A stretch of DNA of 64,000 bases from the NCBI GenBank assembly GCA_017428055.1, contig JAFRRN010000062.1, forward strand, positions 1 to 64,000, written 5' to 3'. A program made the translations under genes and the position numbers. Below are positions 19,239 to 22,842 of the stretch, in pieces (the stretch's first letter is position 1; every line of letters begins with the position of its first letter). The stretch comes from Prevotella sp. Its GTDB lineage: Bacteria > Bacteroidota > Bacteroidia > Bacteroidales > Bacteroidaceae. The notes under the pieces are model-generated. The model was given only the letters and a program-made list of their open reading frames with translations, did not search any database and was not told the DNA's origin.

Positions 19239-21938
19239 TTAGTCCTTTTTCTTCGCATCTAAATGGTAAGCGAAACTGATTCCGACATAGTGATGATGGA
19301 AGTCCTGCCAAGTGGAAGAGTGCTGGTATGCAGTCTGATTGCTCCAGAATTCGTCCTCGTTGTTGAGTATGTCTTCAAACTTCAAAGTGAGTCGGGCCTT
19401 GTTCTTGAGGATTTTCCAAGTAATATTGGCATCCCAGAGCAACATGTTCTTGTTCATCGACTGGGCAGCGTAGCCACGGCGGGTTGTCTCGGTGATTGTT
19501 GACTCGAACACGAAGTTTCTCCAAGTCGCCTCAGCTTCAAGGCCGAAGTTGTTGTCCCAAAGCGTAGTGTTCTGCTCGGGCGAGGCGGTATAACGGATAC
19601 GGTCGGCCTCAATTTCTGCAAACACAGAGGCTTTGAGCCAGTTTCTGTCGAAAGAAAATGTGAGCTTGTCCTTGGGGTAGAAGTTGTTTTGCCGATTCAA
19701 GATGCGTTCGGGTTGAGTAGGTAACAGTGTCAGGTAACCATAGCGTTGTTCGGTTTTAAGACGAAACTCGTTTTCCAAACGGAACATATCGCCCAGTCCT
19801 TGGTCGTAGTTCAGGCGGAAGTTCCAGGTGTGGCTCCCCCGAATGTTTTCGGGTCGGCTGACATAGACGGCTGTCGCCGGGTCGTATCTGAGTGCAGTCG
19901 TGAGGTCGTGGTCGATGTCCTGATAACCGATGCTGGCACTGAATGAGGTCTGGCTTCGGGCAAGTACCATGTTGTATGTTAGCTTGACGTCGTGGATGTG
20001 CGAGTCTCGCAAGTCGGGGTTACCCTCGGTGATGAAAAGTGGGTTCGTAAGGTCGCGGTAGCCGATAGTCTCAATGATTTTTGGCTGCGAGGTACGGAAG
20101 CTGTAGTTCAGTTCTAAGCCGATTGTCTTGCTGATTTTCCAAATGGCACGGAGCGAAGGGTCGATGAGAAAACTGTGGCGCATGGCGGCAGTGTCGAGCA
20201 TTCCGCGCTGGTAGTCTTGGCTTTCGCGCAGCCATTTCGCCGTAAGGCTGGGCATCAACTGAATGGGGGCAAGATTAATGGTGGAGCCAAATTTCAGGCT
20301 GTGTGTCTGATTGCTGTAGTGGTCGCTATAGCTGTTGGCCATGTCCACCAGTCCATCGGTCAGGAAATCTTGGTCTGTGCGATTCCTGTCGGTCTGGAAC
20401 ATGTATTGCACCTGAATCATCATTTTCTTGGTGAGCCATCGGGCGTGATGCAACTCAGCGCCCATTGAGAACTGGCTGCTTGGCGAGGTGGAGTACTGGT
20501 TTAACTGTGAAGAAAGGATAGACGAAGTATGCGAGGTAATGGTGCGGTCGTTCCATCGTTCTGACTTGCTGTCGGTATAGTTCAACGTGATGCTGGCACC
20601 GAGTGCCCCGTCTTTGATGTAATGCTCCCAGCCAGCCTTCGTATAGAGATGGGTTGCGTGACCTTCGCTCCTTGAATTGATATATTGTGAGAGCGTGGGC
20701 TGATAGTTGCCCATGACAGTCTGTTCTTCCTGCTCTGTTTCCTCTCTGCCATGAGAGCGGGTACGCTTGTAATCGACGCTGGCAGTAAGGGAGAAAGTGT
20801 TCAGTGAGTCTTTTGCCCATCGTAGGTCAGCATTGATGGTGGGGCTTAACTCATGGTTACGGTTATACGAAGTGCTGGAAATGCGACTGGCAGCGGTATT
20901 CGGAAAGAAATTCTCCGTCTCGGTGTGCGACGTGCGCCAATTGTCGTCATGCGCCAGTCCGCCACTGAAACTGTATTGGCTTTTCAGCTCCTGTGTGCCA
21001 GACTGCTGTTTCCATTTGTGCTGATAGCCAGCCGATGCTCCTTGCTCTTGTCCAAAGCCATTGCCCCACATACTCATGCTCCGCCCCATGTAATGGCGAT
21101 GACGCTTGCCCAAATTATTGGCATCGGCAAAGACCAGTACGGGGTCGGTCTTCGACAAACGGTTCATTGTCAGTTCGCCCTCATAGTAGTCGGGGGTCTG
21201 GTAGCCTGCCTTCACGTCGCCATACCATCGGTCGAGGAATCCGGGCTTGATATTGAGGTCAAGTACCATGTCTTGGGTACCGTCGTCCTTGCCAGTGCGC
21301 TCGCTGAATTCCGAAGCCTTGTTATAAGCCTTGATGTCCTGCACAGCCTCGGCGGGCAACTGTTTCATCAGCGCATCACCGCCCAACATACTCTCGCCGT
21401 CCATCGTCAGGCGGATGGGCTTGCCGTTCCACGACATCTTTCCCTCTTGGTCAACTTCCACGCCAGGCAACTTCCTGATGAGTTCGTCGAGTCTCGCTCC
21501 CTCCTGCAAGTGGAAAGCCTCGGGGTGGAAGACAATCGTATCGCCTCGCACGGTGAAGCGTCGTGCCCGGCCTGTCACCTCCACCATCTTCAGCATCTGC
21601 GGCGACATCTTCAGTTCTATCGTCCCGATGTCGAGCGTGTCTTTGCGGCTGTCGCTGAAGGCAAGCACGGGCTTCGTCTTGTTGTAATATCCCAGCATCG
21701 ATACCTCTATGTTCCCTCGTCCGTCGGCAAAGAAAGTGAAAACCCCCAAAGAGTCGGCCTTGCTGTTCATTATCGAATAGCCGTAGTCGCCCATCCTTTG
21801 GGTGTATTTCACCGAGGCTTCTGCCAGCGGTTCCTTCGTATCAGAATCTACCACGCGGCCACGGATGATGTCAGCATTGACAGTTTGTGTTCCCAGTATG
21901 AATGTGAGCAGTGCTGTGATGATGGCTTTCTTGTTCAT
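19239..21938 (-). CDS. Outer membrane beta-barrel protein with carboxypeptidase-regulatory-like domain
   Basis: An 899-residue protein with a signal peptide (ending V-N-A), then a CarboxypepD-regulatory-like domain (I-R-G-R-V-V-D-S-D-T-K-E-P-L, residues about 24-110). A plug-like segment follows (V-R-G-D-T-I-V-F-H and L-P-G-V-E-V-D-Q-E-G-K). The rest is a long beta-barrel with alternating aromatic residues to the C-terminus. It belongs to the outer-membrane beta-barrel family related to TonB-dependent receptors, which import or export unknown ligands. No SusD partner is adjacent, so a glycan-PUL role is unlikely. It is transcribed alone from the promoter at 22331-22338 through a leader of about 385 bases holding the structured element at 22041-22204. 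Confidence 0.85.
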   Translation of the reverse strand: MNKKAIITALLTFILGTQTVNADIIRGRVVDSDTKEPLAEASVKYTQRMGDYGYSIMNSKADSLGVFTFFADGRGNIEVSMLGYYNKTKPVLAFSDSRKDTLDIGTIELKMSPQMLKMVEVTGRARRFTVRGDTIVFHPEAFHLQEGARLDELIRKLPGVEVDQEGKMSWNGKPIRLTMDGESMLGGDALMKQLPAEAVQDIKAYNKASEFSERTGKDDGTQDMVLDLNIKPGFLDRWYGDVKAGYQTPDYYEGELTMNRLSKTDPVLVFADANNLGKRHRHYMGRSMSMWGNGFGQEQGASAGYQHKWKQQSGTQELKSQYSFSGGLAHDDNWRTSHTETENFFPNTAASRISSTSYNRNHELSPTINADLRWAKDSLNTFSLTASVDYKRTRSHGREETEQEEQTVMGNYQPTLSQYINSRSEGHATHLYTKAGWEHYIKDGALGASITLNYTDSKSERWNDRTITSHTSSILSSQLNQYSTSPSSQFSMGAELHHARWLTKKMMIQVQYMFQTDRNRTDQDFLTDGLVDMANSYSDHYSNQTHSLKFGSTINLAPIQLMPSLTAKWLRESQDYQRGMLDTAAMRHSFLIDPSLRAIWKISKTIGLELNYSFRTSQPKIIETIGYRDLTNPLFITEGNPDLRDSHIHDVKLTYNMVLARSQTSFSASIGYQDIDHDLTTALRYDPATAVYVSRPENIRGSHTWNFRLNYDQGLGDMFRLENEFRLKTEQRYGYLTLLPTQPERILNRQNNFYPKDKLTFSFDRNWLKASVFAEIEADRIRYTASPEQNTTLWDNNFGLEAEATWRNFVFESTITETTRRGYAAQSMNKNMLLWDANITWKILKNKARLTLKFEDILNNEDEFWSNQTAYQHSSTWQDFHHHYVGISFAYHLDAKKKD

Positions 21939-22040
21939 TGTTACGATTTCTATTGTTGGTACTTACTATTATTATATACACCATTCATGCGGAAATGTGA
22001 CATTCAAGGGCGTTAATTCTTCTTAATTGGACAAAGAAAT

Positions 22041-22204
22041 GGCGTAAGTCTGATTCTGCATCGGTTTCTGAGGCATCGCCAAACGCCTTACGCCCAGATA
22101 CAAGTATCAGCCCACGCCATCTTGCGTGAGCATCAACTTCTATCATCCTTGGGCGTTCCTTGTTTGGCGAATTTCAGAAACCAAGAATCAAAAAGTCAAC
22201 GCTT
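22041..22204 (-). promoter_or_regulatory. Long structured leader with alternative pairing (candidate cis-RNA)
   Basis: A series of coaxial inverted repeats surrounds the loop 22118-22123. The pairs are 22110-22117 with 22124-22131, 22097-22105 with 22136-22144 (8 of 9), 22090-22095 with 22151-22156, 22077-22084 with 22162-22169, 22063-22071 with 22174-22182 (9 of 9) and 22052-22056 with 22185-22189. A competing pair, ggcgtaag 22041-22048 with cttacgcc 22087-22094, cannot coexist with the third helix. The innermost stem has a C-A mismatch on the + strand that becomes a G.U wobble in minus-strand RNA, which favours the minus orientation, the sense of the downstream barrel gene. Symmetric tgat/tgat internal loops separate two of the helices. 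I do not recognise it as a known riboswitch; a palindromic mobile element is the main alternative. Confidence 0.6.
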
Positions 22205-22330
22205 CCTTATGTCGTTTTATGTCTGTCGGTCTAATTTCCGGGCAAAGCTCGCCGCCTGGTAACTTTTCCGCTCATGTTGTGATCTCGTTAGTGAATGTTT
22301 AACTCTTTTCTTTTGTTGTTTTAACGGGTG

Positions 22331-22338
22331 CAAAGATA
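22331..22338 (-). promoter_or_regulatory. Promoter -7 box of the outer-membrane barrel gene
   Basis: TATCTTTG on the minus strand (22338-22331) fits TAnnTTTG. A clear -33 TTTG at the right distance is not seen. The next minus-strand start is at 21938. Confidence 0.5.
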
Positions 22339-22380: not shown

Positions 22381-22842
22381 TTATGTATTATTGGAGAAAA
22401 AAGGGCGGGAAAGACACGATTCTGCCTTCCCCGCCGTAGTTGTAGTTGTAGTTTCGATGCTTACCACGGGACGTATATCGAAGAACCGTAGGCCACATGC
22501 TATCTGTTCCTCAAGCGTTGATACTTGACTGATGGCTGTCATGTTGAACACATACTTCAGCATGGGTTGGTAGAATCCCATACCAGTCATAGTATCGTGG
22601 GTGCCGGGGATGCTCAACTTGCACACCTTTGTATCGTCTTTCACCATGCCCAGCCAGTCGGTGGCGGGTGAGGGCAGGTCGTAAGCAATAAAGATGGTGT
22701 CCTGGTAATCTTCTGAGAAGATGAACGGTGAGTCGAGGGAGGTGTTTTCATCATAGACTTTCGCCAAGTCCTCTTCCTCGCAACTGTTCATTGTAGTCAT
22801 GGCCATTATGGCCATAACTATATATAAGAGATTTCTTTTCAT
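22381..22842 (-). pseudogene. Truncated PI-PLC X-domain lipoprotein
   Basis: The 153-residue product has a lipoprotein signal (T-M-N-S-C). After a linker comes the start of a phosphatidylinositol-specific phospholipase C X domain: L-S-I-P-G-T-H-D-T-M-T with the first catalytic His, and L-E-E-Q-I-A-C-G-L-R-F-F-D-I-R-P. Family members continue for more than 200 residues with the second His and the rest of the barrel. Here the frame goes into Thr repeats and ends after passing through the operon terminator at 22397-22435. A deletion has therefore joined the 5' part of the gene to the terminator. It is the last gene of the efflux operon, 38 bases after the OMF gene. Activity is unlikely. Confidence 0.7.
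22397..22435 (-). terminator. Terminator of the efflux operon
   Basis: On the minus strand ggcggggaa (22435-22427) pairs with tttcccgcc (22412-22404), including one G.U. The stem is followed by c and a run of six T (22402-22397). It overlaps the 3' end of the truncated PI-PLC frame. Confidence 0.75.

Follow-up and report, generated by a model that had tools for sequence, protein, structure and literature searches.

Results

A long hairpin in the leader of a barrel gene

The window, that is, the whole stretch of DNA that was analysed (64,000 nucleotides from a Prevotella sp. genome), carries on its minus strand a gene for an outer-membrane barrel protein with a long leader. An earlier note on this DNA placed the leader between a -7 promoter box and the gene, and both ends were found as described, the box at 22331-22338 and the ATG of the barrel gene at 21936-21938. 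Upstream of the leader promoter lies a short lipoprotein-like ORF (22381-22842, minus strand, 153 aa), for which no Pfam match was found. The features needed below are as follows, with a, b, c and d denoting the putative pairing strands.

22331-22338 (-), -7 promoter box of the leader, TATCTTTG, read directly
22231-22275 (-), upstream ORF of 14 codons (ATG AGC GGA ... TAG)
22041-22206 (-), putative four-strand element, match to covariance model R1 with 165.2 bits, E 7.6e-34; this copy was itself among the aligned sequences from which R1 was built
22181-22206 (-), strand a; candidate partners b (giving the 5' hairpin) or d (giving the base of the long hairpin)
22171-22175 (-), internal loop of the long hairpin, 5' side, GAAAT
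22122-22162 (-), strand b; candidate partners a or c
22088-22118 (-), strand c, which begins with the apical 3' arm GGCGTGGG (22111-22118); candidate partners b or d
22087-22094 (-), GGCGTAAG, proposed in the earlier note as the partner of 22041-22048; a perfect match here, not conserved
22070-22076 (-), internal loop of the long hairpin, 3' side, ATGCCTC
22041-22072 (-), strand d, which ends CTTACGCC; candidate partners c (terminator-like hairpin) or a
22029-22040 (-), U-rich stretch ATTTCTTTGTCC past strand d; interrupted, and therefore poorer than in most family copies
19239-21938 (-), downstream gene, 899-aa outer-membrane beta-barrel protein (PF14905, E 1.2e-20)

The nested inverted repeats that had been reported here are present, with arms of 21 nt (22076-22096 and 22150-22170) and perfect arms of 9 nt (22063-22071 and 22174-22182), and so is the perfect 8-nt pair between 22041-22048 and 22087-22094. 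Minus-strand RNA of 22041-22204 folded into a single long hairpin of -75.1 kcal/mol (z -8.9), and none of 200 dinucleotide shuffles (-42.5 ± 3.65 kcal/mol) was as stable. The plus-strand RNA was weaker (-65.1 kcal/mol, z -7.7), and the entire leader gave a folding z of -5.6. The long hairpin at 22041-22204 is real.

The hairpin belongs to a family found across Bacteroidota

Judged by its sequence relatives, the window hairpin is one copy of a multicopy leader-RNA family across the phylum Bacteroidota. A DNA search found partial copies on other contigs of the same genome and matches in 76 of 200 genomes of the genus. The copies fell into two subtypes with common motifs, and their stems were altered on both sides together. 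The covariance search across Bacteroidales that the earlier note had proposed was made with model R1, built from 17 sequences, and it found many copies. In the window's genome R1 matched nine places (E up to 1); one of them is the window copy, and the poorest has E 0.127. Counting the window's own genome at each level, matches occurred in 60 of 100 genomes of the genus (E up to 0.01); at 1e-4 the order had matches in 80 of 247 genomes (59 of 167 genera) and the phylum in 26 of 296 (13 of 140 genera). Because a limited number of candidates was scored per genome, copy numbers by R1 are lower bounds; in one genome all 11 candidates scored fitted the model.

A pattern scan of named genomes gave at least 120 stretches, and the 80 of these that were listed were examined. 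R1 also fitted 58 of the 80 (E up to 0.05), and the titles of all 58 read as Bacteroidota; the 22 without a match comprised 20 titled as other groups, one Hymenobacter and one "bacterium". Carriers among the matches listed include Paraprevotella, Alistipes, Bacteroides, Odoribacter, Chryseobacterium, Flavobacterium, Mucilaginibacter and Belliella, with Paraprevotella clara (L207) and Flavobacterium hercynium (L254) among the named records. Viral contigs gave 47 pattern hits, of which R1 fitted 11.

One step of the collection took 86 loci and left out multiple entries for a single place, together with some loci that were truncated or duplicated. The loci fetched came mainly from the best-scoring places, which leaves weak copies under-represented. 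Dropping identical copies reduced 167 placed copies to 160 distinct ones, of which 156 entered the strand-swap and apical-arm tests, 159 the micro-ORF and U-run counts, 154 the promoter count and 153 the orientation count (seven had too little downstream sequence). The folds of separate halves, the count in the c:d core, the repeat swap tests and the prefix folds used 124 or 125 dereplicated copies.

No family of Rfam 15 (4227 families) reached or came near its gathering cut-off on the window's element or at 31 other loci, which rules out a copy of a known Rfam RNA and agrees with the earlier note's remark that the hairpin lacks the hallmarks of cobalamin or TPP riboswitches. Elsewhere in the window nothing reached a gathering score, and a relaxed threshold gave two weak snoRNA-like matches outside the element. 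DUF805 or DUF805b RNAs occur in two element-bearing loci (L155, 1180-1245 and 2144-2212; L149, 2080-2114), and one DUF805 RNA copy in L155 lies 47 nt past the element.

Position in the leader and very short upstream ORFs

The longest nearby ORF followed the element in the sense direction in 146 of 153 copies, was antisense in five and was absent in two, consistent with the earlier claim that the hairpin is leader RNA read on the minus strand; an orientation-free palindromic repeat is ruled out by the same count. The ATG lay a median of 66 nt downstream of the element. In 81 of 154 copies a TAnnTTTG -7 box lay 35-115 nt upstream; the two control windows gave 12 and 7. In some of the named flavobacterial and related copies the next ORF is farther off, as in L233 and L216 (289 and 350 nt); such copies may be small RNAs or long leaders. 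In L233, L254, L216, L224, L273 and L265 the RNA would begin with a GCGATTCTTC-like sequence directly past the -7 box, and this start, standing in for a micro-ORF, could pair with strand a.

In 99 of 159 copies the 65 nt preceding the element contained an ORF of at most three codons; shuffles gave 38 ± 5 (maximum 53) and an upstream control window 17 of 159. One-codon ORFs alone were not enriched in these copies (16 vs 13.1). ATGs as such were not enriched before the element either (184 vs 196), so that it is the quick stop that stands out. The commonest micro-ORFs were ATGACATAA and ATGACATAG, followed by ATGTAA, ATGAGCGGATAG, ATGTAG and ATGAAATAA. In 56 of the 159 copies no ORF of up to five codons was found in the 65 nt. 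A leader peptide of the trp type, whose regulatory codons overlap strand 1, was not seen: the micro-ORFs mostly had one to three codons, the codons varied, and they ended a median of 24 nt before the element. The window copy, with its ORF of 14 codons, is not among the carriers of such micro-ORFs; its ORF looks like ATGAGCGGATAG, which is read in several relatives, with an in-frame insertion of 33 nt.

A 34-nt head preceding strand a recurs with a different body, a TTGCTTAGGCAAGC-like hairpin, at contig C104 of genome G000 (1777-1810, locus L007) and in L023 and L037, as if leader heads and bodies were exchangeable. In L031 the 5' half resembles L025 and L026 and the 3' half L022, a chimera joined at the apical loop that could also be an assembly artefact.

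The helices of the long hairpin covary

In alignment A3 (101 matches, 100 chosen loci) the long hairpin, hereafter Fold I, was paired in 94.6% of cells, and 34 of 36 pairs had changes on both sides; A3 was fitted to the structure of the model and so leans towards Fold I. Double-change cells numbered 762, compared with 212 in shuffles, and none of 500 shuffles equalled the observed covariation; shifting the registers by one to three columns lowered pairing to 36-45%. The helices that the earlier note had drawn do covary. The internal loop of Fold I contains conserved unpaired AA (alignment columns 43-44, A in 96% and 94%) opposite CCU (columns 193-194, C in 100%).

A second, exclusive fold

The earlier note also held that the 3'-most segment, 22041-22048, can instead pair with 22087-22094, at the cost of the third helix. 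Exclusive pairing of this segment is conserved in the family, but its conserved partner is another: when copies were compared by eye, the perfect 8-nt match to 22087-22094 occurred in the window copy only and was rejected as a conserved pair, whereas a match to the apical 3' arm (22111-22118 in the window) was general. When the apical 3' arm was forced onto the 3' segment, two side-by-side hairpins were predicted, suggesting a scheme of four strands. By their complementarity, strands a, b, c and d would pair in two exclusive ways, either a:d with b:c (Fold I) or a:b with c:d (Fold II).

Individual loci illustrate the match. The apical arm is GGCATGGG with the 3' segment CCATGCC in L095, GCATGGG with CCCATGC in L171, and GGTGTGGG with CACACC in L047; the 5' strand has changed too in L171 (AAAAGCAT) and L047 (AAGTGTT). 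In L173 the c:d complementarity reaches well past the core, and in L024 and L182 the two segments pair poorly.

Pairing energies were compared between a copy's own strands and strands swapped among copies (n=156). Own strands paired better in a:b (-18.98 vs -15.21 kcal/mol), c:d (-25.30 vs -20.56), b:c (-23.79 vs -15.63) and a:d (-12.85 vs -11.73), and had no advantage in the off-scheme pairs a:c (-8.50 vs -8.74) and b:d (-8.46 vs -8.56). With 124 dereplicated copies the p values of Fold II were 7e-13 (outer) and 2e-10 (inner) for a:b and 1.4e-4 (outer) and 9e-14 (inner) for c:d, and four off-scheme tests gave 0.25-0.93; because swapping preserves composition and not relatedness, these p values are guides. 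Strongly positive results came from a2:d1 (3e-21) and c2:b2 (3e-9), two comparisons that had been run as controls and that contain Fold I helices. Each half also folded alone: the 5' half had a mean z of -2.62 (94 of 125 copies below -2) and the 3' half one of -4.14 (118 of 125), the 3' half of the window copy reaching -34.8 kcal/mol. By the comparison of own with swapped strands, both exclusive folds have been kept in evolution, as is expected of attenuators.

Column-wise tests of Fold II gave little. The core of c:d (8 bp) hardly varies, and in fixed register it had no excess of double changes (12 vs a shuffled mean of 10.3 in 55 sequences; 4 vs 2.3 in nine). RNAalifold returned almost no structure from MAFFT alignments of the two halves or from A3 split in two, perhaps because the halves align poorly. 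Strand d often pairs with a GGGACU farther downstream (own -11.62, swapped -10.61), which makes a third pairing or pseudoknot possible.

A terminator-like end and the order of folding

A U-run (at least 6 T in 8 nt) followed strand d in 141 of 159 copies, in contrast to 45 and 46 of 158 in control windows, and a T-rich stretch came immediately after the apical-arm duplex in 150 of 156. The family has a terminator-like hairpin with an adjoining U-run, as is expected of attenuators, although the large c:d loop is atypical for a terminator. At equilibrium Fold I was favoured over Fold II by 7-21 kcal/mol in six copies, and Fold II would thus need kinetics or a factor. In minimum-free-energy folds of growing prefixes, which are not a kinetic simulation, a:b was present in 118 of 125 copies at the end of b and still in 108 with 14 nt of c; b:c was present in 109 once 30 nt of c had been added, in 119 immediately ahead of d and in 114 when the element was complete. 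This order suggests that strand c can capture b only over a limited length of transcript, until d emerges, and that delay would favour the terminator.

The genes behind the element

By a hydrophobicity rule of our own, applied alike to targets and background, a signal-like N-terminus was called in 114 of 146 downstream products and in 21 of 102 other ORFs of the same loci. Of the 146 downstream ORFs, 127 were scanned against Pfam (19 near-duplicate, short or doubtful ones were omitted), and these hit 81 families, led by LRR_5 (15) and including T9SS sorting domains (5), BACON (3), dockerin (2) and N6 DNA methylases (2); no shared pathway was seen among them. The tie to the barrel gene family that the earlier note assumed did not hold, both by this diversity and by the absence of an R1 match at seven loci whose barrels are 66-70% identical to the window's. 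A barrel only 32% identical (L334) has a weak R1 match just upstream (39.3 bits). Absence at close barrels and presence at a distant one mean that the leader is gained, lost or exchanged independently of the gene. The earlier note would have taken the hairpin for a palindromic mobile element if copies occurred apart from the barrel family, if they bore target-site duplications or if the helices lacked compensatory changes; copies apart from that family do occur, and the compensatory changes are there.

Several loci deserve mention in their own right. Near-identical signal peptides with different mature proteins stand behind the leader in two sets (L014, L022, L023, L024 and L026; L011, L013, L015 and L030), as if leader and signal peptide were one exchangeable module. 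Within the window's genome, a DUF6364/PIN_3 pair occupies 2720-3577 of L006 (contig C70), where the PIN gene ends within the 5' part of a truncated element copy and another signal-peptide gene comes next; restriction-modification genes, MmeI-like and Eco57I-like, follow weaker copies in L049 and L050 (contigs C30 and C101). In several genomes (L061, L117 and L177) the element is followed by small HTH genes, all of one kind.

Discussion

The four-strand scheme followed by a U-run has the topology of an attenuator. We propose that the element is a cis-acting leader RNA of a Bacteroidota-wide family and, more likely than not, a transcription attenuator. Since the two folds exclude each other and one resembles a transcription stop signal, the element is probably an on/off gate for the gene behind it. 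In the nascent RNA, strand a would pair first with b. The emerging strand c may then take b from a, and b:c together with a:d would form the long hairpin, which would allow read-through; if b were still held by a when d emerged, c and d would form a hairpin at the U-run and the polymerase would stop before the gene. Two inputs are candidates: a ribosome on the tiny upstream ORF may alter the availability of strand a, and the AA/CCU internal loop could be where the read-through fold is stabilised by a protein or a small molecule. Termination, the order of events in cells and the signal are parts of this scheme that we infer.

The structured leader could instead act after transcription, by protecting the 5' end, as an RNase III site, or through a micro-ORF and hairpin that set translation of the main ORF (ribosomes passing the hairpin included), with Fold II secondary. 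Such a role fits Fold I as the stable fold and the enrichment of micro-ORFs before it, but it would leave unexplained both the conserved complementarity of a:b and c:d and the U-run directly past d, and we think it unlikely. We give still less credence to a metabolite riboswitch or protein-binding antiterminator with the internal loop of the long hairpin as aptamer: the leader position, the exclusive folds and the conserved unpaired AA and CCU would suit it, but the 127 downstream proteins, from 81 Pfam families, have no shared pathway that we could see, the conserved loop is single and small, and Rfam has no match. With a general factor as ligand, this reading would be compatible with an attenuator. 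A palindromic mobile element whose insertion in leaders is fortuitous is very improbable, for although the element is multicopy, is missing before seven closely related barrels, is fitted by R1 in viral contigs (11 of 47 pattern hits) and shows one chimeric copy and internal deletions, it keeps one orientation (146 of 153) and a fixed place past the -7 box, and double changes maintain its helices. A single orientation and a single place, in a leader, are unlike plain palindromic insertion; spread by recombination combined with an RNA role is possible.

As a putative attenuator, the element can be set beside known systems. Attenuators of the trp type pair strands 1:2 and 3:4 or else 2:3, with a U-run past 3:4 and a leader-peptide ORF. 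The family resembles them in its four strands, exclusive pairs, U-run, ORF before strand 1 and position in a 5' leader. It differs in that its ORF usually has one to three codons, lies before strand a and has no common regulatory codon; its b:c is much longer; and it is phylum-wide, with many copies per genome, and fronts surface and secreted proteins, not one biosynthetic pathway. Like riboswitches it is a leader RNA with exclusive folds, but without a known aptamer or a shared downstream metabolic pathway. It is like LoaP/UpxY-type (NusG-paralogue) antitermination leaders (cf. PMC12691694) in that a leader RNA hairpin would govern termination, but most of its genes lie outside polysaccharide and antibiotic operons. 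DUF805 RNA (RF03081) is likewise a cis-regulatory RNA, but it is a separate family of 68 positions without a match to the element.

A literature search, in which most papers were judged by title and the opening of the abstract, found no account of the element. A study of mRNA 5'-end maturation in Segatella copri has reportedly been published. PMC8040213 describes two palindromic Bacteroidetes candidates, HMP2_1032 and HMP2_4205 (106 and 132 bp), as predicted Rho-independent terminators near TonB or TPR genes. Compared by description only, these resemble the family in being palindromic, from Bacteroidetes and terminator-like, and they may overlap it.

More tentatively than the attenuator itself, we can picture a multi-gene, phylum-wide attenuator regulon, a view we advance as a possibility rather than an expectation. 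One two-state RNA, spread by recombination among unrelated genes, might gate a large share of the surface and secreted proteins, along with some restriction-modification genes, and might respond through the ORF of one to three codons and the internal loop to a general signal (for example, ribosome availability or elongation speed) and to no metabolite.

Bacteroidota largely do without Shine-Dalgarno sites. PMC9723704 says the same of flavobacteria and reports 64 structured 5' regions in a flavobacterium. If the attenuator reading is true, many exported proteins of gut and environmental Bacteroidota would be under one RNA gate that is missing from Rfam. The family would then offer a handle on surface variation in Prevotella and its relatives, and a natural setting in which to test how termination may be steered by a minimal ORF together with a large hairpin where Shine-Dalgarno sites are largely lacking.
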